Made by a program: the position numbers and the translations under genes. Shown in pieces: positions 44,415 through 56,146 of a stretch of DNA of 64,000 nucleotides. The number at the start of each line of letters is the position of its first letter. Position 1 is the first letter of the stretch. Source of the DNA: Desulfatibacillum sp. (GTDB lineage Bacteria; Desulfobacterota; Desulfobacteria; Desulfobacterales; SpSt-501); the NCBI GenBank assembly GCA_020725555.1, contig DYEU01000021.1, positions 1-64,000 on the forward strand, read 5' to 3'. The notes under the pieces are model-generated. The model saw only the letters and a program-made list of their open reading frames with translations, made no database searches and had not been told where the DNA came from.

Positions 44415-44444
44415 CTTATAGAAGCCCGGCCGCGGGCCTGTCAA
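44415..44444 (-). promoter_or_regulatory. Promoter of the ten-gene redox accessory operon
   Basis: Minus strand TTGACA (44444-44439), 18-bp spacer, TATAAG (44420-44415). The -35 element overlaps the stop codon of the upstream amidohydrolase gene. Confidence 0.75.
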
Positions 44445-45784
44445 GCCGGCCCGGGGGCGGGCGGGGCAAGGAGCCGCCTCAGCCGCGCGGCGGCCTCCTC
44501 GACCCGGGCCGCGGCCGGCGCAGGGTCGAAAGAGAGGACGCGCCCGTTCTCCACGACGCGGCGTCCGCCCACGATCACCGTGCGGACGTCCGCCCCGCGC
44601 GCCGCGTAGACCACGGCCGAGACCGGGTCGTGGAGGGGGGTGAGGTGGGGGGCGCGTGTCTCGAGGAGGACGAGATCGGCCTGTTTTCCGGGTTCGATCG
44701 CGCCGATCTCGGCCCCCATGCCGATCGCCCGCGCCCCCTGGCGGGTCGCCAGCCGCAGGATCTCCGCGGCGGAGACGGCCGTGGGGTCGAGCCGCGCCGC
44801 CTTGTGGACCTTCGCTGCGAGGTCCATCGCGCCGAAGAGATCGAGGTCGTTGTTGCTGGCGCTGCCGTCGGTGCCGAGGCCCACGGGGATCCGCCGGGAG
44901 AGCATCTCCGGCAGGGGGGCGATCCCCGCGGCGAGCTTGAGGTTGCTTTCGGGGTTGTGGCTGACCGCGCTTCCCCGGCGGGCGAGGATCTCGAGGTCGC
45001 TTCCGTCCGCCCAGACGGCGTGGTGCAGGAGGCTTCTTTCGTCCAGGACGCCGGCGCGCTCGAGAAGGCCGATCGGCGTGAGGCCGTGGCGCGCCAGGCA
45101 TTCCTCCCGCTCGCGGTGGGTCTCCGCGGCGTGGGTCTGAAAGAGAAGGCCACGCGCCGCGCACAGGCGCTTGGCGCCGGCGAGCGTCTTTTCCGAGCAG
45201 GTGTAGGGGGCGTGGCAGAAGACCGAGGGCCGGACCCGCGGCGAGCGCCCCTCCCAGCGGTCGCAGAAGGCTTCGGCCGCGGCGAGGTTTTGCGAGGGGT
45301 CGGGGACCCCCGGCGCCGGGAAATCGATCACCCCCTGGCCGACGACCGCCCTCAGGCCCGAGGCGAGCACGGCCTCGGCCACGGCGTCGGCGTAAAAGTA
45401 GCCGTCGCAGCAGGTGGTCGTGCCGGAGAGGGCGAGCTCGGCCAGGGCCAGCAGCGCCGCGGCGTGCACGGTTTCGGGGTCGAGGATCAGGCGCTCGGCG
45501 GGGAAGATGAAGTCGTTCAGCCAGCGCTCGAGGGGGAGATCGTCGGCGAGACCCCGGAAGAGCGTCATCGGCAGGTGGGTGTGGGCGTTCACCAGCCCCG
45601 GGAGGAGAATCGCCCCCGCGGCGTCGATCCGTTCGGCCGCCTCCCGGGGCCGCTCCTTGCCCGGCCGGCCGAGGGCCAGGACCCGGCCGGCCTGAACGGC
45701 GACCCAGCCCCCCGGGATGACCTCCATCGCGGGGTTGCAGGTCAGCACCCAGGCGCCTTCGATGAGGAGATCGCAGGTTGTCAC
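44441..45784 (-). CDS. mtaD: MTA/SAH/5'-deoxyadenosine deaminase family amidohydrolase (first copy)
   Basis: A 447-residue metal-dependent amidohydrolase. GLVNAHTHLPM (His68, His70), the metal His in THAAETH, the proton-shuttle region and GTDGSASNNDLD are those of the MtaD/DadD family, which deaminate 5'-methylthioadenosine, S-adenosylhomocysteine or 5'-deoxyadenosine to the inosine form. It is a paralogue of the adjacent gene, translationally coupled by a four-base overlap, and lies downstream of a purine nucleoside phosphorylase. Which copy acts on which substrate is unknown. Confidence 0.88.
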   Translation of the reverse strand: MTTCDLLIEGAWVLTCNPAMEVIPGGWVAVQAGRVLALGRPGKERPREAAERIDAAGAILLPGLVNAHTHLPMTLFRGLADDLPLERWLNDFIFPAERLILDPETVHAAALLALAELALSGTTTCCDGYFYADAVAEAVLASGLRAVVGQGVIDFPAPGVPDPSQNLAAAEAFCDRWEGRSPRVRPSVFCHAPYTCSEKTLAGAKRLCAARGLLFQTHAAETHREREECLARHGLTPIGLLERAGVLDERSLLHHAVWADGSDLEILARRGSAVSHNPESNLKLAAGIAPLPEMLSRRIPVGLGTDGSASNNDLDLFGAMDLAAKVHKAARLDPTAVSAAEILRLATRQGARAIGMGAEIGAIEPGKQADLVLLETRAPHLTPLHDPVSAVVYAARGADVRTVIVGGRRVVENGRVLSFDPAPAAARVEEAAARLRRLLAPPAPGPA

Positions 45785-47124
45785 GGCGCCCCCCCGGCCC
45801 GCCCCCGCCGCGCGCCGCGGATCCCCACGGCCAGGCGCTCAACCGCGGCCATGGCCTCCTCCACGTCGAAGGTCTCGATGCGGCCGCCTTCCATGAGCAC
45901 GCGGCCCTCCACGACCGTGCAGGCGACGTCGCTTCCGCGCGCGGCGTAGACGAGCTGCGAGGCGGGTTGGTAGAGGGGCACGAGGTGGGGGCGGCGGGTG
46001 TCGACGACGATCAGGTCGGCCCGCTTGCCGGGCTCGAGGGTGCCGGTCAGCTCCCCCAGCCCGAGGGCGCGGGCGCCCTCGCGGGTGGCCATGCCCAGGA
46101 CCGTCTCGGCGTCCATCACCGCGGGGTCCAGCGCCGTCCCCTTGTGGATCTTGGCCACGGTGTCCATCTCGCGCAGGAGGTCGAGGTCGTTGTTGCTCGC
46201 CGCGCCGTCGGTCCCGATCCCGACGCAGAGCCCCGCGGCGAGCATCCGCGGCACGGGGGCGACCCCCGAGGCGAGCTTGAGGTTGCTCTCGGCGTTGTGG
46301 GCGATCTTGACCCCGGCGCGCGCCAGGCGCTCGATGTCGGCCTCGTCCACCCAGACGCAATGGCAGGCGAGCAGGCCCGGCCCCAGGACGCCCAGGCGCT
46401 CGAGATGCTCGACCGGGGAGGCGCCGTAGCGCTCCCGGATCGTCCCGATCTCGCCGCGGGTCTCGGCGAGATGGGTGACGAGCGGAACCCCGTGCCGGGC
46501 GGCGAGGCGGGCGGCGCGCACCAGGAGCCCCGGGGCGCAGAGGTAGGGGGAGTGCGGCTCGACGGCGACCGTGACCCGCGGGTGGCCGCGCCATTCATCG
46601 ATCAGCCGCTCGGTCACGGCGAAGCCGTTCTCGATCCCGCCGTAGTGCGGCGAGGGGAAATCGAAGAGCACCTCGCCCACGACGGCCCTGAGGCCCGCCT
46701 CGTGGGCGGCGCGGGCGACCGCGGCCTCGAAGAGGTACATGTCGCAGAAGGTCGTCGTCCCCGAGAGGATCATCTCCGCGCAGGCCAGCAGCGCCCCGCG
46801 GTAGACCTGCTCCTCGGTGAGGGCGGCCTCGGCGGGGAAGATGTGGTCGTTGAGCCAGCGCTCGAGGGGCAGATCGTCGGCGAGCCCCCGGAAGAGGGTC
46901 ATCGCGGCGTGGGTGTGGGCGTTCACCAGGCCGGGCAGGATGAGGCCCCCCCGGGCGTCGATGCGGCGGGCCGGGAGGTAGCGCGGCGCGAGCTCCCGGG
47001 TTTCGCCCACCTCGAGGATCCGGCCGCCGTGGACGGCGACCGCGCCGTCGGCGAAGCGGCGGCCGCGGTCGTCCAGGGTGAGGAGGGTCCCCCCGCCCAC
47101 AAGAAGGTCAATCGGCCGGGCCAT
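45781..47124 (-). CDS. mtaD: MTA/SAH/5'-deoxyadenosine deaminase family amidohydrolase (second copy)
   Basis: A 447-residue paralogue of the downstream gene with the same motifs: GLVNAHTHAAM (His70, His72), THLAET, CHCVWVDE and GTDGAASNNDLD. The two proteins align without large gaps, consistent with a tandem duplication followed by divergence. It overlaps the purine nucleoside phosphorylase gene by 17 bases. Confidence 0.88.
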   Translation of the reverse strand: MARPIDLLVGGGTLLTLDDRGRRFADGAVAVHGGRILEVGETRELAPRYLPARRIDARGGLILPGLVNAHTHAAMTLFRGLADDLPLERWLNDHIFPAEAALTEEQVYRGALLACAEMILSGTTTFCDMYLFEAAVARAAHEAGLRAVVGEVLFDFPSPHYGGIENGFAVTERLIDEWRGHPRVTVAVEPHSPYLCAPGLLVRAARLAARHGVPLVTHLAETRGEIGTIRERYGASPVEHLERLGVLGPGLLACHCVWVDEADIERLARAGVKIAHNAESNLKLASGVAPVPRMLAAGLCVGIGTDGAASNNDLDLLREMDTVAKIHKGTALDPAVMDAETVLGMATREGARALGLGELTGTLEPGKRADLIVVDTRRPHLVPLYQPASQLVYAARGSDVACTVVEGRVLMEGGRIETFDVEEAMAAVERLAVGIRGARRGRAGGAP

Positions 47125-47959
47125 CGTCCCTCAGCCGCCGGGCGAGCGCCGCAAGCAGCCGCAGGAGGCGCGGCTCGGCCTCCCTCGCCGCCGCGAGGAT
47201 CTCGGCCATCGTGGAGCGCCGCGGCCGGTCGGGGTCGTGCACGTTGGTGATGACCGAGACGCCGCAGAGCCGCATCCCGCCGTGCACGGCGGCGATCGCC
47301 TCCTGGACGGTGGAAAAGCCGACGGCGTCCGCGCCGATCGCCCGCAGCCAGCGCACCTCGGCCGGCGTCTCGAGCGCGGGCCCGCGCAGCCCGGCGTAGA
47401 CGCCCGGCCGCAGCTCGATCCCCGCCCGCCGGCCGCACTCCCGGGCAAGGCGGCCGAGCTCGGGGTCCCAGGCGAAGGCCATGTCCGGGAACCGGGGGCC
47501 CCAGGCCTCCTCGTTTGGCCCGACGAGGGGGTTTTCGCCCGTCAGGTTGATGTGGTCGGCGATCCCCAGAAGATCGCCCGGGGAGAGCGCCGGGTTCAGC
47601 CCCCCTGCGGCGTTGGTGAGGACGAGCCGCCGCACGCCGAGCTCCTGCAGCAGGCGCACGGGAAAGGCGACCTGCCGGGCGCTGTAGCCCTCGTAGAGGT
47701 GCAGGCGGCCCTGGAGCACGAAGACCGCGAGCCCGGCGAGCCTCCCCGCGGCGAGGCGTCCGGCATGCCCCTCGACCGTGGCGGGCGGGAGGTGGGGGAT
47801 CTCGCGGAAATCCGCGGCCTCGGCCCCTTCGAGCGCCGCGGCGATCCCGCCGAGGCCGGTTCCGGTGACGATCGCGGTGTCGGGCCGGATCGAAAACCGG
47901 CGCCGCACGGCTTCCGCCGCTTCGATCGCCTGCGCCCGGGTCGGCATCGCTGCGGTCAC
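47108..47959 (-). CDS. Purine nucleoside / methylthioinosine phosphorylase
   Basis: A 283-residue trimeric-type PNP. VTGTGLGGIA, the EGHAGRL phosphate site, LTNAAGGLNP and GVYAGLRGPALETPAEVRWLR with the base-binding Glu are conserved. The usual GMSTVPE reads GFSTVQE and ITN is followed by VHDPDR, changes at or near the ribose site that could favour 5'-modified nucleosides. With the two deaminases and MtnA it could convert methylthioinosine to methylthioribose 1-phosphate and hypoxanthine. First gene of its operon. Confidence 0.88.
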   Translation of the reverse strand: MTAAMPTRAQAIEAAEAVRRRFSIRPDTAIVTGTGLGGIAAALEGAEAADFREIPHLPPATVEGHAGRLAAGRLAGLAVFVLQGRLHLYEGYSARQVAFPVRLLQELGVRRLVLTNAAGGLNPALSPGDLLGIADHINLTGENPLVGPNEEAWGPRFPDMAFAWDPELGRLARECGRRAGIELRPGVYAGLRGPALETPAEVRWLRAIGADAVGFSTVQEAIAAVHGGMRLCGVSVITNVHDPDRPRRSTMAEILAAAREAEPRLLRLLAALARRLRDDGPAD

Positions 47960-48123: not shown

Positions 48124-48618
48124 ATGGCCGGCCTGCCGCACCCCGAGCACCCCGACATCACCGCCGCAATGTGGGAGCAGATCGATGCCGTCATCGAGCG
48201 CCACCGGGGCGTCCCCGGCTCGGTGATCGCCGTTCTGCGCGAGTGCCAGCAGATCGTCGGCTACCTGCCCGTGGAGCTGATCGACGCCATCGCCGCCGGC
48301 CTGAACCTGCCGCGCAGCGACGTGTTCGGCGTGGCCTCGTTTTACTCGCTTTTTTCCCTCAAGCCCAAGGGGCGCAACCTGATCAAGGTCTGCATGGGGA
48401 CCGCCTGCTACGTGAAGGGCATCAAGGAAGTGATCACCCGCATCGAGGCCCATTTCCGGGTCGCGCCGGGGGGCACCTCGGCGGACCGGCGCTTTTCCCT
48501 CGAGGCCGTGCGCTGTTTAGGGGCCTGCGGGCTCGCCCCCGTCATGGTGGTGAACAGCGACACCTACGGGGACATGAAGGCCGACCGGGTGATCGAGGTG
48601 CTCGAGCCCTACAGCTGA
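48124..48618 (+). CDS. hydC: NuoE/HydC-like [2Fe-2S] subunit
   Basis: A 164-residue NuoE-family subunit. A helical N domain is followed by a thioredoxin-like [2Fe-2S] domain with ligands in CMGTAC and CLGAC. It passes electrons between the flavin subunit HydB and its partner enzyme. First gene of the plus-strand operon, followed by a DRTGG gene and hydB. The expected catalytic HydA is missing, so the partner could be a hydrogenase or formate dehydrogenase encoded elsewhere. Confidence 0.92.
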   Translation: MAGLPHPEHPDITAAMWEQIDAVIERHRGVPGSVIAVLRECQQIVGYLPVELIDAIAAGLNLPRSDVFGVASFYSLFSLKPKGRNLIKVCMGTACYVKGIKEVITRIEAHFRVAPGGTSADRRFSLEAVRCLGACGLAPVMVVNSDTYGDMKADRVIEVLEPYS

Positions 48619-48637
48619 TCCGGGCGGGCGAGGCGCG

Positions 48638-48991
48638 ATGAAAATCTCGGAAATCCGGGACATCCTCAAGGCGGAGGTGCTGGCGGGCGAAGACCAGCTC
48701 GACACCGTCGTCACCGGCGGCGGGGGCGCCGACCTCATGGCCGACGTCCTCTCGGCGGTGGCCAAGGGCGCGGTGCTGCTCACGGGGCTGACGACCGAGC
48801 AGGTGCTGCGGACCGCGCGCGTGGCCGGCGTCGCCTGTGTCGTTTTCGTGCGCGGCAAGCGGCCCGACCAGCCGGTGATCGAGCTGGCGCGATCCTACAA
48901 GCTCCCGGTCCTGCTCACGAAGTACTCGCTCTTCGTCGCCAGCGGCCGGCTGTACATGAACGGCCTGCGGGGCCTCGACGGGTCCTGGTAG
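48638..48991 (+). CDS. DRTGG-domain protein (third copy)
   Basis: A 117-residue DRTGG protein (MKISEIRDILKAEVLAGED, GADLMADVLSAV, CVVFVRGKRPDQPVIELAR, TKYSLFVASGRLY). It matches the 44.3 kb copy in length and most motifs, suggesting a duplication within this locus. Placed between hydC and hydB, so the domain appears tied to this electron-transfer module. Confidence 0.9.
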   Translation: MKISEIRDILKAEVLAGEDQLDTVVTGGGGADLMADVLSAVAKGAVLLTGLTTEQVLRTARVAGVACVVFVRGKRPDQPVIELARSYKLPVLLTKYSLFVASGRLYMNGLRGLDGSW

Positions 48992-49029
48992 GCGGCCCCC
49001 GCCGGGCGGCGCGAGACCACGGAGAGAAG

Positions 49030-50817
49030 ATGAACCAGGTCAGAACCCAGCTCATGCTCTGCGGCGGCACGGGCTGCCGCGCCAACCGCAGCGAGGCGTT
49101 CCGGGAAACCCTCCAGCAGGAGCTCGAGCGGCGCGGGCTCGCCCGCGAGATCGAGATCGTCGAGACCGGCTGCAACGGCTTCTGCGCCGTCGGCCCCGTG
49201 ATGCTCGTCCAGCCCGAGGGCATTTTCTACCAGAAGCTCACCCCCGAGATCGTCCCCCACCTCGTCGAGGAGCATTTCCTCAAGGGGCGTCCGGTCAAGA
49301 AGCTCTTCTACGTCGAGCCCGCCTCCAAGGAAACCATCCCCAAGATGGAGGAGATCCCCTTCTTCGCGCACCAGATGTTCTGGGTGATGCGCAACAAGGG
49401 GGTCATCGACCCGGAGAAGATCGACGAGTACATCGCGCGCGACGGGTACTTCGGTGCGGCCAAGGCGCTGCGCGAGATGACCCCCGAGCAGATCATCGAG
49501 GAGGTGAAGATCTCGGGCCTGCGCGGCCGGGGCGGGGCGGGTTTCCCCACGGGGATCAAGTGGGAGTTCGCCCGCAAGAGCCCGGGAGGGGTCAAGTACG
49601 TCCTGTGCAACGCCGACGAGGGCGACCCCGGGGCCTTCATGGACCGCAGCGTCCTCGAGGCCGACCCGCACGCCGTGCTCGAGGGCATGATCATCGCCGC
49701 GCGCGCGATCGACGCCCACCGGGGCTACATCTACGTGCGCACCGAATACCCCCTCGCCATCCGGCGCCTGGAGATCGCGATCCGCCAGGCGCGGGAGTAC
49801 GGCCTGCTGGGCAAGGACATCCTCGGGACCGGATTCGATTTCGACATCGAGATCTACCAGGGGGCCGGCGCCTTCGTCTGCGGCGAGGAGACGGCGCTCA
49901 TGCGCTCGATCGAGGGCAAGCGCGGCATGCCGCGGCCGCGGCCGCCCTTTCCCGCCGTGAAGGGCCTCTGGGAAAAGCCCACCGTCCTCAACAACGTCGA
50001 GACCCTGGCCAACATCCCGCTGATCATCACCCACGGCGGCCGCTGGTTCGCCTCCGTCGGCACCGAGGGCAGCAAGGGCACCAAGGTCTTCGCCCTCTCG
50101 GGGGACGTGAACAACATCGGCCTGGTCGAGGTCCCCATGGGGACGAGCCTGCGGCGGCTGATCTTCGAGATCGGGGGCGGCATCCCGCGGAAGAAAAAAT
50201 TCAAGGCGGTGCAGCTGGGGGGGCCCTCCGGGGGCTGCGTGCCCGAGCAGTACCTGGACATCCCCGTCGACTACGAGGAGATCGCCAAGGTGGGCGCCAT
50301 CATGGGCTCGGGCGGCGTGATCGTGATGGATCACGAGACCTGCATGGTGGACATGGCGCGCTTCTTCATGGACTTCGTGCAGGACGAGTCCTGCGGCAAG
50401 TGCACCCCCTGCCGCGAGGGGACCCGCCGGCTGCTCGAGATCCTCGAGAAGCTCTGCGAGGGCCGCGGCGAGCCCGGCGACCTCGAAACGCTCGAGGAGC
50501 TCTCCCGGATCATCAAGGAATCCTCCCTTTGCGGCCTGGGGCAGACGGGACCCAACCCCGTGCTCTCGACGCTGCGCTACTTCCGCGAGGAGTACGAGGC
50601 GCACATCTTCGAGAAGCGCTGCCCCGCCAAGCGGTGCGTCGCCCTGCTCAAGTTCGAGATCGACCCCGAGGTCTGCACCCAGTGCGGGGCCTGCTTCCGG
50701 GCCTGCCCGGCGGGGGCGATCGCCTGGAAGAAAAAGGAGCCGGCCCGCATCGACAAGGAGAAATGCATCCGCTGCATGACCTGCTTCGAGAAGTGCCGCT
50801 TCGACGCGATCTCCTGA
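49030..50817 (+). CDS. hydB: NuoF/HydB-like NAD(P)H- and FMN-binding subunit
   Basis: A 595-residue HydB-type subunit. An N-terminal thioredoxin-like [2Fe-2S] domain (GGTGCRANRS, ETGCNGFC) is fused to the NuoF core: RGRGGAGFPTGIKWEF and NADEGDPGAFMDR for NADH/FMN and ESCGKCTPCREG with SSLCGLGQ for a [4Fe-4S] cluster. Two more [4Fe-4S] motifs close the protein (CTQCGACFRACP, CIRCMTCFEKC). This domain set is that of bifurcating hydrogenase or formate dehydrogenase complexes. No hydA follows; the next gene is on the opposite strand. Confidence 0.95.
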   Translation: MNQVRTQLMLCGGTGCRANRSEAFRETLQQELERRGLAREIEIVETGCNGFCAVGPVMLVQPEGIFYQKLTPEIVPHLVEEHFLKGRPVKKLFYVEPASKETIPKMEEIPFFAHQMFWVMRNKGVIDPEKIDEYIARDGYFGAAKALREMTPEQIIEEVKISGLRGRGGAGFPTGIKWEFARKSPGGVKYVLCNADEGDPGAFMDRSVLEADPHAVLEGMIIAARAIDAHRGYIYVRTEYPLAIRRLEIAIRQAREYGLLGKDILGTGFDFDIEIYQGAGAFVCGEETALMRSIEGKRGMPRPRPPFPAVKGLWEKPTVLNNVETLANIPLIITHGGRWFASVGTEGSKGTKVFALSGDVNNIGLVEVPMGTSLRRLIFEIGGGIPRKKKFKAVQLGGPSGGCVPEQYLDIPVDYEEIAKVGAIMGSGGVIVMDHETCMVDMARFFMDFVQDESCGKCTPCREGTRRLLEILEKLCEGRGEPGDLETLEELSRIIKESSLCGLGQTGPNPVLSTLRYFREEYEAHIFEKRCPAKRCVALLKFEIDPEVCTQCGACFRACPAGAIAWKKKEPARIDKEKCIRCMTCFEKCRFDAIS

Positions 50818-52059: not shown

Positions 52060-52645
52060 ACCGCCCCGCTGCCCCTGGGCCGGCGGCGACCCGCTGCTGA
52101 TCGCCTACCACGACCGCGAGTGGGGGGTTCCGGAGGGCGACGAGCGCCGCCTCTTCGAATTTCTCGTGCTCGAGGGCGCCCAAGCCGGGCTGAGCTGGAT
52201 CACGATCCTGCGCAAGCGCGAGGCCTACCGCCGCGCTTTCGCCGGGTTCTCGGCCGAGCGGGTGGCGCGCTTCACCGCGGCCGACGTGGGGCGGCTCCTC
52301 GCCGACCCGGGCATCGTCCGCAACCGCGCCAAGATCGAGGCCGCGATCGGCAACGCGCGGGGGGTCCTCGCGCTGCGCGAGGAGTTCGGCTCCTTCGGCG
52401 CCTTTCTCTGGGGCTTCGCCGGCGGCGCCCCGCGCACGAACCGCTGGCAACGCGCGGCCGACGTTCCCGCGGAGACCGCGGCCTCGCGGGCCTTGAGCCG
52501 CGAGCTCACCCGGCGCGGCTTCCGCTTCTTCGGGCCGGTGATCGCCTATGCCTTCATGCAGGCGACGGGCCTGGTGAACGATCACCTGACGAGCTGCTTC
52601 CGCCACGCCGAGATCGCCGCTCAGTCGCCCATCCTTGCCATGTAG
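51992..52645 (+). CDS. tag: DNA-3-methyladenine glycosylase I
   Basis: A 217-residue Tag. RCPWAGGDPLLIAYHDREWGVP, LEGAQAGLSWITILRKRE and GLVNDHLTSC align with E. coli Tag; Cys of RCPW, His of YHD, His of NDH and Cys of TSC are the zinc ligands. It removes 3-methyladenine from DNA. The only in-frame start is ATG 51992, giving an unusual N-terminal extension of about 25 residues read through the end of the PilZ gene. Confidence 0.93.
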   Translation: MSEPNSRPPRSSTRPWASTCAAEPPRCPWAGGDPLLIAYHDREWGVPEGDERRLFEFLVLEGAQAGLSWITILRKREAYRRAFAGFSAERVARFTAADVGRLLADPGIVRNRAKIEAAIGNARGVLALREEFGSFGAFLWGFAGGAPRTNRWQRAADVPAETAASRALSRELTRRGFRFFGPVIAYAFMQATGLVNDHLTSCFRHAEIAAQSPILAM

Positions 52646-53088
52646 TCGTCGTAGAGGGTCTCGAGCGCAAGCTTGTGCTTGGCCTCCTCCTGGCAGAGCA
52701 CCTGGAAGAGCTTCTTCGCCTCGGGCCCTTGCGCCTGCCGCAGAAACTCGTTGTAGAGCCGAAGGGCTTTTTCCTCGCGCTTCATCGCCAGCATCAGGAT
52801 CTCGTTGTAGGCCATCCCCGGCCGGTATTCGACCTCGACGGCGAAGTCGCTGCGCTTGATGTCCTTGATCCACTTGAGCGGGTAGTCGGCCACAGCCTGG
52901 GCGGTGCCGCGCGTTTTAAACTCAAGGAGCAGCCGTTCGTGCCGGCCCTCCTCGCGGGCGAACTCCGTGAACATCTCCCGGGCGCCGGAGAAGCTCTCCT
53001 CTTTGGCGAGCCGCGCGTAAAACTGGACCGCCTCCTTTTCCTTGGCGATGGCGTAATCGAGGATTTCTTCGAGGCTTCCGAAATTCAT
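52621..53088 (-). CDS. Rubrerythrin-like ferritin-superfamily protein
   Basis: A 155-residue four-helix di-iron protein. Two E...ExxH iron sites are visible: EKEAVQFY with EEGRHERL, and EEKALRLY with EEAKHKLA. The C-terminal rubredoxin domain of full rubrerythrin is absent. It probably reduces peroxide or stores iron. The start at 53088 follows AGGAGGG. Convergent with tag, overlapping by 25 bases. Confidence 0.9.
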   Translation of the reverse strand: MNFGSLEEILDYAIAKEKEAVQFYARLAKEESFSGAREMFTEFAREEGRHERLLLEFKTRGTAQAVADYPLKWIKDIKRSDFAVEVEYRPGMAYNEILMLAMKREEKALRLYNEFLRQAQGPEAKKLFQVLCQEEAKHKLALETLYDDYMARMGD

Positions 53089-53478
53089 GGGGACCCTCCT
53101 TGCGGGGTTGAACGGGCAAGAGACGCGATTGCCAAGGCTGTTAGCAGGAATCGATAGGGCGATCAAGGCGCGGCAACCCGGGCCCTTGCACCCCGTGCGG
53201 CTGCTGTGGTGCTTCGCCACGGTCCCTGGCGCGGAATTCCACGGCCATGGAACCAACCGGATCCACAGGGCAATCGCTTCCGCCTGCGGGAAGCGGCCCC
53301 CCCTGGGGCGTGGCCGAATCCAACACCCCGCCTGCGGCGCGGCCGAACGCCCGCATCCCGTGGCGCAATTTTTTTATCATGCAATTTCAATTCCTTGACC
53401 TGAGGGATAGGGCTTGCGCGGCGCTTGCGGCACACGGCTTGCTCTCCTGCCGGGCAGAACGGCGAAAGGAGGGCAGCC
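53089..53478. other. Intergenic region upstream of the twin-cysteine-module genes
   Basis: No convincing gene is present. Open frames lack ribosome binding sites or protein-like composition. The region contains an AT-rich patch near 53370-53395 that probably holds the promoter of the next operon, but no clear -35/-10 or -24/-12 pair is visible. Confidence 0.55.
53138..53166 (-). promoter_or_regulatory. Possible promoter for the rubrerythrin-like gene
   Basis: Minus strand TTGATC (53166-53161), 17-bp spacer, TAACAG (53143-53138). Confidence 0.35.
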
Positions 53479-54486
53479 ATGAGCGAGGAAAGCAAATCGC
53501 GGCGCGAGGGGGCGAAGCGGGAGAGCGTAGGCTATGGCTCGACCTACGGCCGGGCGGCGGAAGATCCGGGGAAGCCCCGGGGGATCGACACCGTCCTCGG
53601 GGGCCGGGCCTACCGCGTGCGGCCGGATGCCAAGGCGCGCACGGATGCGCCCTGCCTCTGGATGGCGGCGGGTGCGGTGAAGTTCAAGCCCTGCACCAAT
53701 TTCTACGACTGCCCGACCTGCACCTACGACCAGGCGATGGAGGAGCGGGCGAAGTCGGGCCGACAGCCCGGCTGGCGCGACCTCATGCGCCGGCTCCCGC
53801 CCGAGGGCAGGCTGTGCCGGCACACCTTGACCGGCCGGATCGCCGGACGCCGGTGCGCCTACGATTACGCCTGCGGGACCTGCGATTTCGACCAGCTCTA
53901 CGAGGAGGTCCTCTGCGCGCGGCACCCCGCCCGGCCGTCGGAGCTCACCCGGGTCCGCGGCTTCGCCGTCCCCCTCGATCACCGCTTTCACGCCGGGCAC
54001 ACCTGGGCGCGGGTGGAGGCGGGCGGCGCGGTGCGGATCGGGCTGGACGATTTCGCCCTGAGGCTCTTCGGCGCCGCCGACGGCTATGAGCTCCCGCTGT
54101 GCGGGCAACGTCTCGATGCGGATCGGCCGGCGCTCGCGATCACGCGCGGCGGCAGGCGTGCGGCCGTGCTCGCCCCGCTCTCCGGCGTGGTCGTGGAGAC
54201 CAACGCGCAGGTGCGCGCGGAACCCGCCGCCGCGCGCCGCGACCCCTACGGCGAGGGCTGGCTTCTCGTGGTGCGGCCGCCGGAGCCGAAAAAGGCCCTC
54301 GAGCCGCTTCTCATCGCCCAAGGGGTCATCGACTGGCTCACCGCCGACGTCGCCCGGCTCGAGCGGCTGATCGAGGAGACGGCGGGGCCGCTCGCCGCGG
54401 ACGGCGGGCTCCTCGGCGAGGACATCTACGGTGCGCTGCCGGCCCTCGGCTGGGAGCGCCTGGCGGGTGAATTCCTGCGCAGCTGA
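53479..54486 (+). CDS. Twin-cysteine-module protein with degenerate glycine-cleavage-H domain (first)
   Basis: A 335-residue protein of no family I can name. Two identical cysteine modules, C-x12-C-x5-C-x2-C, occur at Cys59/72/78/81 and Cys113/126/132/135; each ends with CxYDQ or CxFDQ. Residues about 165-270 resemble the lipoyl-bearing H protein (HAGHTWARVEAGG, GLDDFA, LAPLSGVVVETN, DPYGEGWLLVV), but the lipoylation Lys site has Gly/Arg (ITRGGRRAAV). The C terminus is helical. No signal peptide is visible. Start ATG 53479 follows AAAGGAGGG. Confidence 0.82.
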   Translation: MSEESKSRREGAKRESVGYGSTYGRAAEDPGKPRGIDTVLGGRAYRVRPDAKARTDAPCLWMAAGAVKFKPCTNFYDCPTCTYDQAMEERAKSGRQPGWRDLMRRLPPEGRLCRHTLTGRIAGRRCAYDYACGTCDFDQLYEEVLCARHPARPSELTRVRGFAVPLDHRFHAGHTWARVEAGGAVRIGLDDFALRLFGAADGYELPLCGQRLDADRPALAITRGGRRAAVLAPLSGVVVETNAQVRAEPAAARRDPYGEGWLLVVRPPEPKKALEPLLIAQGVIDWLTADVARLERLIEETAGPLAADGGLLGEDIYGALPALGWERLAGEFLRS

Positions 54487-54499
54487 GGGGAGATCGGGG

Positions 54500-55477
54500 A
54501 TGAAGACCGCGCGCGCCGCCGGGGACGCCTTCACGCCCTGCCTGTGGATGCAGGCGGGGGTGGTGCGCCGCAAGTCCTGCACCCGCGGCTACCGCTGCGG
54601 CGGGTGCGCCTTCGACCGCGCGCTCGGCCGCGTGGCCGAGGAAAACCGCCGGCTCGCCTGCCGGGGCGTAAGGCCCGCCGGCAAGCGGGGAACGATCGAG
54701 CCTTGGCAGGACCGCCTGCGGCGCCTTCCCTTCCGGCTGCGGCCCTGTGTCCACCACCTCGCGGGCCGCATCCCCTTCCGGGCCTGCACCGGCGATTACC
54801 GCTGCCGCCGCTGCGAGTTCGATCAGTATTTCGCCGAGGAGTTCCGCGTCGTTTTGGTCCCCCAGGTGGTTGCCCCGCTTGCGGTCGAGGGTCTGCAGAT
54901 CCCCCAGGGGTTCTATCTCCACCCCGCCCACGTCTGGCTCGAGCCCGGGGAGGGGGGCGAGGTACGCCTCGGGCTGGACGATTTCGGCTGGAGGCTTCTT
55001 TGCCCGGAGCGGGTCGAGGCGCCGCTTGCGGGGACAAGGCTCGCCCGCGGTCGTCCCGCCTTCGTCCTGCGCCGCGGGGCAAGGAGGCTATCGCTTCCCT
55101 CGCCGGTCGACGGGGTGGTCACGGCGGTGAACCCGGCGCTGCGCGAGCGGCCGGGGGGGAAGGGGCCGGACCCCTACGTCGCCGACTGGGTGCTCCGGGC
55201 GCAGGCCGCGGATCTTGCCGCCGCGCTCTCCCGGCTGCGGGTCGGTTCCGCGGCGGCCGAGCACTTGGGTTCGGAGTGCCGCAGGCTTGCCGCGTTTCTC
55301 GCCGCGCGCCGCGGTTTGCTCGCCGCCGACGGCGGCTTCCTCGACTGGCAGGCCCTAGCGGGGGTGGCCGAGGAGCATTGGGAAGAGCTCGCCTGCTTTT
55401 TTTTCCGCCCCGGGTCCAAAAGAAAGGGGCCTGCCTTGCGGCAGGCCCCGAGATCCGCAGCAATAGATCCCCGTTAG
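54500..55477 (+). CDS. Twin-cysteine-module protein with degenerate glycine-cleavage-H domain (second)
   Basis: A 325-residue paralogue of the preceding gene. The two modules have the same spacing: Cys14/27/33/36 and Cys83/96/102/105, ending CAFDR and CEFDQ. The H-like domain (FYLHPAHVWLEPG, GLDDFGWRLL, LPSPVDGVVTAVN, DPYVADWVLRA) also lacks a lipoyl lysine. Start ATG 54500 lies 13 bases after the first gene. The last residues are translated from the terminator of the convergent PEP-CTERM gene, so the true C-terminal tail may be an accident of overlap. Confidence 0.82.
   Translation: MKTARAAGDAFTPCLWMQAGVVRRKSCTRGYRCGGCAFDRALGRVAEENRRLACRGVRPAGKRGTIEPWQDRLRRLPFRLRPCVHHLAGRIPFRACTGDYRCRRCEFDQYFAEEFRVVLVPQVVAPLAVEGLQIPQGFYLHPAHVWLEPGEGGEVRLGLDDFGWRLLCPERVEAPLAGTRLARGRPAFVLRRGARRLSLPSPVDGVVTAVNPALRERPGGKGPDPYVADWVLRAQAADLAAALSRLRVGSAAAEHLGSECRRLAAFLAARRGLLAADGGFLDWQALAGVAEEHWEELACFFFRPGSKRKGPALRQAPRSAAIDPR
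55417..55449 (-). terminator. Intrinsic terminator of the PEP-CTERM gene
   Basis: GGGGCCTGCC (55426-55435) pairs perfectly with GGCAGGCCCC (55440-55449), loop TTGC. On the minus strand TTTCTTTT follows (55425-55418). It lies 25 bases beyond the PEP-CTERM stop codon and inside the end of the opposite gene. Confidence 0.8.
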
Positions 55478-55929
55478 CGGATCACCCTCCGGCTGAAGGC
55501 GGCCAGGCCAAGCAGCCCGGCACCGAGCAGGATCATCGTCCCCGGCTCGGGGACGCGGGCGGTCGGTCCGGGCTGCTCACCTCCATCACCGGCGGGGCCG
55601 GTTTCTCCATCGGAAATCACCCCCGCGACAAGGGTCTCTCCCGCCGAACCCCCGGAAGAGGTTGAATCCGGCGGAGCCGAGGCCTGCGCTTCCACCATGA
55701 TTTCATCCAAAGGCTTTGTGGCCGAAGGGTTTTGTGGATCGTCCTTGCCTTGGGCTGAATCGATCAAAGGCTGCAGGTCCTGCTGAAAGACCTGCTCGCT
55801 GGTCACCGCCTGGCCGCGGGATTTCTTTTTGCCGCCTCCGCCTCCGCCGAAGAACCAGAAGGCGTCCGCCTCGGCGGCAAGACCCATTAGGAACATCGCC
55901 CCTACCAGTAAAACCGTTGCTTTTTTCAT
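55474..55929 (-). CDS. PEP-CTERM sorting-domain protein
   Basis: A 151-residue exported protein. The signal peptide (to about residue 23, AEADA) is followed by a Gly/Lys-rich stretch and a Ser/Asp/Pro-rich low-complexity region. The C terminus carries the PEP-CTERM tripartite signal: VPEPGT, a hydrophobic helix (LLGAGLLGLAA) and basic SRRVIR. Such proteins are cut and anchored by an exosortase; none is encoded here. AGGAGGAA lies upstream of the ATG at 55929. It is composed unlike its neighbours. Confidence 0.9.
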   Translation of the reverse strand: MKKATVLLVGAMFLMGLAAEADAFWFFGGGGGGKKKSRGQAVTSEQVFQQDLQPLIDSAQGKDDPQNPSATKPLDEIMVEAQASAPPDSTSSGGSAGETLVAGVISDGETGPAGDGGEQPGPTARVPEPGTMILLGAGLLGLAAFSRRVIR

Positions 55930-56146
55930 TCCCTGCCGTTCCTCCTTTCGTTGCCACGTTTTGCCCACTGCAGGCTGCAAAGCCTCTGCCTTCTTGAATG
56001 CAAGGAGCGTGCAAGAATTACAATTTATATAAAATCAAATAAATTAAAATGGTTTCGTTTGAATGCCCGGAAGGGGACGGGAAAAAATGGGAAAGTGCGC
56101 CCCTGTTTCTGGGTAAAGAAAATCACATCCATGGGGGGATGGCGTG
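55930..56146. other. AT-rich intergenic region upstream of the PEP-CTERM gene
   Basis: Positions about 56014-56052 are strongly AT-rich (ATTTATATAAAATCAAATAA and similar), in sharp contrast with the rest. They probably hold the PEP-CTERM promoter, for example TATAAA on the minus strand, but no paired -35 element is clear. No gene is seen. Confidence 0.5.

Follow-up and report, generated by a model that had tools for sequence, protein, structure and literature searches.

A conserved pair of cysteine-module proteins with an H-protein-like domain lacking the lipoyl lysine in Desulfatibacillum sp. and relatives, candidates for a redox adaptor

The stretch of DNA analysed here, referred to as the window, comprises positions 1 to 64,000 of contig DYEU01000021.1 from Desulfatibacillum sp. 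(assembly GCA_020725555.1). It carries two adjacent genes whose products join tandem modules of four cysteines (Cys4 modules) to a domain resembling the H protein of the glycine cleavage system (GcvH; Pfam GCV_H, PF01597), and which may act as redox adaptors. The pair is an unstudied one of sulfate-reducing bacteria and their kin, and consists of the following features:

53479..54486, forward strand: protein 1 (P0001, 335 aa), with two Cys4 modules, a GCV_H-like domain and C-terminal helices
53653..53721, forward strand: protein 1, cysteine module 1 (C59-C81)
53815..53883, forward strand: protein 1, cysteine module 2 (C113-C135)
53986..54321, forward strand: protein 1, GCV_H-like domain lacking the lipoyl lysine (aligned residue Gly225)
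54500..55477, forward strand: protein 2 (P0002, 325 aa), paralogous to protein 1 (aligned identity 36-39%)
54539..54607, forward strand: protein 2, cysteine module 1 (C14-C36)
54746..54814, forward strand: protein 2, cysteine module 2 (C83-C105)
54926..55258, forward strand: protein 2, GCV_H-like domain lacking the lipoyl lysine

An initial annotation of this DNA had described four C-x12-C-x5-C-x2-C modules in the two proteins, each closing with C-x-(Y/F)-D-(Q/R). Both statements proved correct, with cysteines at 59/72/78/81 and 113/126/132/135 of protein 1 and at 14/27/33/36 and 83/96/102/105 of protein 2. Because C, G, C, Y, C, C and D stand at fixed places common to all four, the modules are considered to be a repeat. 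Homologues were taken from the best 80 of 412 loci found in a scan of public genomes (L061-L140, hereafter the public-genome set), whose record titles are of the Desulfobacterales type, 'Deltaproteobacteria', or only 'Thermodesulfobacteriota', 'Proteobacteria' or 'bacterium'. Among the cultured organisms with the pair are Desulfosarcina alkanivorans and D. cetonica. All eight cysteines, on whose retention in homologues the initial annotation had made its proposal depend, are intact in 80/80 first proteins and 79/79 second proteins, a conservation that is partly selected for, as the two patterns used in the scan include part of module 2. In a broader family of 110 members from a second genome set, some of them cut by contig ends, the module cysteines are conserved mostly in an all-or-none manner: module 1 has four cysteines in 84 members, none in 18 and two or three in 8, and module 2 has four in 79, none in 24 and one or three in 7. 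Relative to the nearest relative (G003), the dN/dS (nonsynonymous to synonymous substitution) values are 0.137/0.610 for protein 1 and 0.227/0.762 for protein 2. A chance or pseudogene origin of the pair was ruled out by the cysteine conservation and the dN/dS values.

The GCV_H domain exceeds the curated Pfam cut-off of 22.2 bits in both proteins (62.3 bits in protein 1 and 30.1 bits in protein 2). A model of protein 1 built from 46 sequences has a mean predicted local distance difference test score (pLDDT) of 82.7, and most of residues 161-290 lie in blocks that exceed 90. Foldseek matched this model to 1onl with a template modelling (TM) score of 0.91 by target length, and VIA-align matched it to 1htp with a Z of 18.8 over 131 residues at 1.6 Å; the VIA-align rows shown for the full-length query mostly cover residues 162-290 and carry little information on the cysteine part. 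The two methods agree that the H-like region, as modelled, adopts the H-protein fold that the initial annotation had expected of it, and the H-like domain of protein 1 is thus predicted to have this fold. Also as that annotation stated, the lipoyl lysine is missing. The corresponding position, residue 225 of protein 1, lies eight residues ahead of a conserved proline and is not lysine in either window protein, nor in 101 of the 110 family members, where it is mostly Gly (37) or Asp (27). The closest relatives usually have Asp, Glu, Gly, Asn or Ser at this site. Lysine is found there in 4/80 first proteins of the public-genome set, and is not among the five commonest residues in the 79 second proteins. 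Arg223, two residues ahead, is retained in 155/159 close relatives. The members with lysine at the aligned position include a subfamily (L185, L186, L191 and L192) in which lipoylation may occur. The genes of this subfamily sit downstream of a major facilitator superfamily (MFS) transporter gene, which in L185 scores above the threshold of a model for L-lactate MFS transporters.

These observations bear on the possibility that the proteins are H proteins after all, with lipoate or another group attached elsewhere, or are degenerate paralogues from glycine cleavage. A GCV_H domain above the Pfam cut-off would be expected under either, and 9/110 members do have lysine at the aligned site. In contrast, the other 101 lack it, and the gcvH equivalog model (TIGR00527, cut-off 115.85 bits) scores 160.8 bits with the genome's own GcvH, one of two other GcvH-like genes present there, versus 59 bits with protein 1 and 24.7 bits with protein 2. 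Purifying selection and cysteine conservation speak against decay. Identity as a glycine cleavage H protein was rejected on the equivalog scores, the lysine and the separate GcvH, and we consider any form of this explanation very improbable. The fold is shared with GcvH (19-30% identity in the structural matches to solved H proteins), but the window proteins differ from it in lacking the lipoyl lysine, in scoring below the equivalog cut-off, and in adding a long cysteine-rich N-terminus and a helical C-terminus. Two further NCBIfam models with a GcvH-like domain, NF045810 (cut-off 150 bits) and TIGR03077 (cut-off 144.05 bits), match protein 1 within its H-like domain alone and below their cut-offs, at 30.1 and 21.8 bits, respectively; protein 2 has no listed match to NF045810.

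A further comparison is with LbpA, a lipoate-binding GcvH relative that works with Hdr-type proteins in Hdr-like sulfur oxidation, according to passages of PMC6067878. These describe 95 aligned LbpA proteins that retain the lysine, and two single conserved cysteines, some archaeal proteins apart, in place of Cys4 modules. Unlike LbpA, the present family does not have a strictly conserved lipoyl lysine. The cysteine part, for its own part, matches no Pfam or NCBIfam family above its cut-off; the zinc finger CHY family (Pfam cut-off 31.3 bits) reaches 11.6 bits in protein 1 and has no match in protein 2. There was also no sequence match to the cysteine domain in the PDB. In protein 1 this domain corresponds to 53638-53928. 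Modelled alone, the domain has a pLDDT of 86.7 and a predicted TM score (pTM) of 0.72, and Foldseek returned 0 matches at E up to 10, in a search in which small domains are easily missed. The H-like scaffold is of a known kind, as are the regulatory genes described below, and the cysteine domain is without a relative found here. Titles and the starts of abstracts listed by searches of open papers gave no account of this combination, with most subscription papers outside this scope.

Protein 1 was matched in 49/58 related genomes, many of the matches covering the H-like part alone and being plain GcvH-type, and the cysteine-module profile matched 83 of the 395 genomes in a sample of the phylum. 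Within the window's genome no further double-module copy was found at E up to 1. The two genes are adjacent and on the same strand in 79/79 loci of the public-genome set that hold both. In a tree of the 110 members, first-type proteins (21 rows) and second-type proteins (20 rows) each form a clade supported at 100/100, and the two clades are sisters (100/96), so that the pair would stem from one old duplication.

The module is also found in other settings, including some without an H-like domain, which the initial annotation did not describe. Accepting C-x12 or C-x13 spacing, 66 of the 110 members have two modules, 25 have one, 16 have none and 3 have four; four modules precede a single H-like domain in L182:8708-10033, L183:8365-9759 and L184:9013-10338. 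In seven members, which form one clade (100/99), a single module is preceded by a HoxU/NuoG-type N-terminus with Fer2/Fer4 and followed by the H-like domain. The N-terminal half of these fusions resembles the HoxU/NuoG N-terminal iron-sulfur (Fe-S) subunit and the N-terminus of group A6 [FeFe] hydrogenases, a likeness that was scanned in L180 and recognized by cysteine pattern in L057 and L176-L181; Fer2 and Fer4 were identified by Pfam in L180 alone, and the other fusions are assigned by cysteine pattern and clade. The window proteins, in contrast, have no Fer2/Fer4 part. In the fusions, the cysteine module and H-like domain come next, at the place where a hydrogenase has its H-cluster domain. 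The fusions of L177-L181 are accompanied by NuoE- and NuoF-like genes and by a protein of about 1,170 residues, which in L180 has thiamine, flavin adenine dinucleotide and 4Fe-4S domains; IOR-beta, aminotransferase and pyridoxal phosphate (PLP) genes are nearby in most of these loci. Operons resembling HmcB/HmcC contain one-module and no-module family members; in L187, the copy scanned, the HmcB- and HmcC-like proteins reach 352.6 and 359.3 bits, below equivalog cut-offs of 420 and 550. Two proteins, L197:5700-6497 and L200:9432-10205, combine a CheY receiver with cysteine modules and have no H-like domain; their first module has x3 instead of x2 ahead of the last cysteine. Additionally, L176 encodes a 189-residue protein with two modules and no Pfam domain, and short one-module open reading frames of 71-155 aa adjoin full copies in L049, L052, L059, L198 and L207.

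Upstream of protein 1 lie three candidate regulatory elements:

53205..53221, forward strand: candidate activator site TGTGGTGCTTCGCCACG, 222 bp ahead of the sigma-54 element
53309..53325, forward strand: candidate activator site CGTGGCCGAATCCAACA, 118 bp ahead of the sigma-54 element
53427..53443, forward strand: sigma-54-type element GCGGCACACGGCTTGCT (GG at 53429-53430, GC at 53441-53442), 35 bp ahead of the ATG of protein 1

Sigma-54 elements were called where GG and GC were both present and at least 11 of 13 consensus positions agreed. By this standard, 64 of the 77 first genes with enough sequence in the public-genome set are preceded by an element, compared with 0/79 second genes, 0/42 kinases, 0/45 regulators, 1/35 HdrA genes, 2/13 MetF genes and 0.3% of shuffles. 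In a second locus set, which partly overlaps the first, the corresponding counts were 32/79 first genes, 0/30 second genes, 0/58 kinases, 0/47 genes of M54 peptidases and 8/444 other genes. When a shorter length limit was applied, 13 sites were listed ahead of other genes, and these include both receiver fusions, the L176 two-module gene, an HndA, a MetF and two HmcB-like genes, each the first of an operon that contains family members. In most loci of the public-genome set the first gene is preceded by a sigma-54-type promoter. In the window itself the element is not significant alone, as 14 sites that good or better (itself included) occur on both strands, and sites as good are found in 5.1% of shuffled upstream regions. 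When it is aligned with four relatives from the genus, its GG-x-AC...TTGC columns do not vary.

Ahead of the sigma-54 elements in the public-genome set, the palindrome TGT-N11-ACA, often in the form TGTnG-N7-CnACA, was counted at 72 sites in 51 of the 63 regions, which partly overlap the set in which it was first noticed. In 60 approximate dinucleotide shuffles the mean was 3.5 and the highest count 10, and control regions ahead of second genes (2/79), kinases (3/41), regulators (2/45) and HdrA (0/35) seldom contain it. Other spacings were found in the same 63 regions, N13 in 20 and N8 in 14. A first count of dyads in 44 regions gave mostly A/T-rich-looking words, several of which resolve to TGT-N11-ACA. 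The sites start preferentially 100-120 and 180-220 bp upstream of the sigma-54 element, and the two candidate sites of the window lie close to or inside these distances. Each has one mismatch to TGTnG-N7-CnACA; CGTGGCCGAATCCAACA corresponds to the 100-120 bp bin of the relatives and TGTGGTGCTTCGCCACG to their 180-220 bp bins, though TGTGGTGCTTCGCCACG is weak alone, since a site with at most one mismatch is present somewhere in 8% of shuffled regions. When promoter and palindrome were combined into one strict pattern, 22 matches were found in 58 genomes, against 1 for the reversed pattern. Of the 22, 10 precede a first-type gene by no more than 260 bp, and the other 12 are not just upstream of one. 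The arrangement is that of a putative sigma-54 promoter with two enhancer sites, to which a linked NtrC-type protein would bind.

Such a protein is often encoded close to the pair in relatives, in a convergent adjoining operon for an M54 peptidase (archaemetzincin), an NtrC-type regulator and a PAS histidine kinase. Of the 57 loci that extend at least 3 kb downstream, 39 have the M54 gene inside that distance, in all 39 convergently and with a median gap of 100 bp; the kinase is present in 37 of 47 loci with 6 kb downstream. In the phylum sample, M54 is found in 74/83 genomes with the cysteine module versus 72/312 without it. By score, the linked genes of L049 are members of the archaemetzincin and NtrC-family two-component systems, with a match to NF033823 at 152.1 bits over a cut-off of 145, and the peptidases retain HExxHxxxxxHC-x4-C-x-M in 46/49 cases. 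Literature searches found no link of archaemetzincin to a cysteine-module H-like protein. Many of the linked kinases start, by eye, with a Rossmann domain; a profile of eight such N-termini matched a nicotinamide adenine dinucleotide (NAD)-binding acetaldehyde dehydrogenase at 4.3e-5 and also Gfo/Idh/MocA proteins, and Pfam GFO_IDH_MocA was found in 5/8 at E up to 1 (best 1.3e-4). The kinases of the Hmc-linked loci L187, L188, L189 and L195 carry CxxCH haem-type motifs, again by eye, and different N-termini are seen in L185, L192 and some others. The loci therefore differ in their sensor and retain the output. In the window's genome, the kinase, regulator and M54 genes are on a separate contig (C6) from the pair (C15), together with MetF-like, MvhD-like and HdrA genes. 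This operon (L142, G000:C6, about 33.7-43.7 kb) has no cysteine-module pair beside it, and its kinase and regulator are 57.5% and 67.6% identical to the pair-linked ones of L039. The sigma-54 promoter, the palindromes, this operon and the receiver fusion all go beyond what the initial annotation contained.

The linkage to a zinc peptidase raises the possibility that the pair serves in storage or delivery of zinc or another metal, with the peptidase as client, or that the metal is structural. The Cys4 spacing, together with a CxxC pair that opens a helix in the cysteine-domain model, would suit such a role, and this geometry is also usual for zinc sites. The fusion of the module directly behind ferredoxin-type domains and the neighbouring Fe-S and flavin enzymes instead favour a redox site, and we regard a zinc protein as quite unlikely.

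A second alternative gives the pair a part in signalling: the modules would sense redox or metal, and the attached domain, H-like or CheY receiver, would report to the kinase as the sensor or feedback element of a two-component system, with no transfer of electrons. Because of the receiver fusion this is the main rival. It would account for the kinase and NtrC-type regulator beside the gene, the sigma-54 promoter with its palindromes and the M54 linkage, and the genes of both CheY receiver proteins are preceded by a sigma-54 site and directly follow a kinase and a regulator on the same strand. On the other hand, the clustered kinase, regulator and M54 families are absent from the available stretches of the five HoxU-like loci L177-L181, in which unclustered genes were outside the scan, so that the module seems to work there without them. 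Similarly, in the Hmc-like operons the genes run with subunits of a membrane enzyme. Overall, a purely sensory role seems unlikely.

The neighbours and fusions of the pair and its relatives point to electron transfer or redox signalling. In the window, the neighbouring redox genes are:

52621..53088, reverse strand: rubrerythrin-like protein, a recurrent upstream neighbour (cluster in 15/80 named loci)
48124..50817, forward strand: genes termed here HndA/HndB/HndC-like, a context neighbour that may share a functional unit with the pair
48124-48618, forward strand: thioredoxin-like [2Fe-2S] protein of the NuoE type (HndA-like)
48638-48991, forward strand: DRTGG domain protein (HndB-like)
49030-50817, forward strand: NuoF-type protein with 4Fe-4S (HndC-like)

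The rubrerythrin-like gene upstream, noted in the initial annotation, was borne out by Pfam Rubrerythrin at 58.8 bits. No HndD-type hydrogenase subunit was seen among the scanned genes neighbouring 48124-50817, and therefore the NAD-linked module may serve another partner. In the public-genome set, an HdrA above 500 bits is present anywhere in the locus in 27 of the 47 loci with 6 kb downstream, and MetF and MvhD occur in 17/80 and 13/80, respectively. The HdrA-type gene of L039, the one compared with NCBIfam models, resembles HdrA2 (654 bits, cut-off 1100) and nicotinamide adenine dinucleotide phosphate (NADPH)-glutamate synthase. Passages of PMC2702500 describe HdrA/HdrL genes with mvhD in the genome of D. 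autotrophicum, and passages of PMC8515935, which deals with methylenetetrahydrofolate reductases, call a NuoEFG-metFV arrangement widespread in Desulfobacterales and Chloroflexi and speculate on electron bifurcation; the present proteins are not mentioned in these passages of either paper. Many long HdrA-type frames contain one in-frame TGA, which is in line with the selenocysteine reported for Hdr proteins of D. autotrophicum in passages of PMC2702500.

The initial annotation proposed a non-lipoylated scaffold joined to metal- or cluster-binding modules, perhaps a redox adaptor. Its scaffold part is supported by the fold of the model, the absent lysine and the conserved cysteine modules, its adaptor part gains from the HoxU-like fusion and the Hdr-, MetF-, NuoEF- and Hmc-like neighbours, and its metal or cluster binding stays conjectural. 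The anatomy of the pair, the promoter and palindromes of the relatives and the linkage to the operon are facts of the genomes; the functional proposals that follow are inferred. We put at about even the chance that the pair encodes redox adaptors, that is, non-lipoylated H-fold proteins with tandem Cys4 metal (probably Fe-S) sites that are made on demand. That the modules are metal sites is suggested by their mostly all-or-none conservation and by the ferredoxin-type fusion; each module of four cysteines would bind a single site, with an Fe-S cluster more probable than zinc. Instead of a swinging lipoyl arm, the H-like domain would offer a surface on which oxidoreductases (HdrA/MvhD/MetF, NuoE/NuoF or Hmc-type) dock, and the proteins would pass electrons or redox state between the docked enzymes. 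Both electron carriage and docking are proposed because of the neighbours and fusions. The kinase may sense the redox state of the cell, through an NAD(P)-type Rossmann domain in many loci and CxxCH haem-type motifs in the Hmc-linked ones, and switch the operon on through the linked regulator, which would bind the upstream palindromes; the M54 peptidase may trim or remove a component.

Several observations weigh against this interpretation. The oxidoreductase neighbours vary, and the window pair adjoins neither HdrA nor the kinase. Its sigma-54-type element agrees at 10 of 13 consensus positions, below the threshold of 11; in the second locus set the threshold is reached by 32 of 79 first genes, fewer than half; and the window's genome gave no match to the strict pattern that combines promoter and palindrome. 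The palindrome count of 51/63 is not fully independent, owing to the overlap mentioned above, and another spacing, TGT-N9-ACA, is present in 16/35 upstream regions of HdrA. M54 is missing from 9 of the 83 module-bearing genomes. Nine of the 110 members have lysine at the aligned lipoyl site, four of them in one subfamily, and the CheY-receiver fusion suits signalling as well as electron transfer. Finally, Fe-S and zinc are not distinguishable by homology, because the cysteine domain has no solved relative. The TGT-N9-ACA sites ahead of HdrA, observed in the named loci L061-L140, are possibly those of another regulator or reflect shared ancestry of the region.

A broader form of the redox-adaptor proposal is offered tentatively. 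The cysteine domain may be an undescribed Cys4 redox carrier, used in one, two or four copies and joined in turn to an H-protein fold, to a HoxU-type Fe-S subunit and to a CheY receiver. Strict anaerobes would thereby have a set of plug-in adaptors for electrons, produced when needed under sigma-54 switches that sense NAD or haem, and connecting NADH, heterodisulfide-reductase-type and one-carbon (MetF) enzymes. With its dedicated genetic switch and its frequent electron-transfer neighbours, the pair suggests a new kind of redox adaptor. An H-protein fold is here kept under strong constraint yet without its cofactor site, and a regulated, conserved pair that is often found with such redox enzymes, and is fused to a HoxU-like Fe-S subunit in one lineage, provides a concrete handle on them.

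Other genes of the window flank these features. Beside the Hnd-like genes, positions 44444-47959 on the reverse strand hold two Amidohydro_1 genes and a phosphorylase-superfamily gene, which we take to resemble a methylthioadenosine/adenosylhomocysteine salvage set. Directly downstream of the pair and convergent with it, a short protein with a PEP-CTERM sorting signal is encoded at 55474-55935 on the reverse strand.

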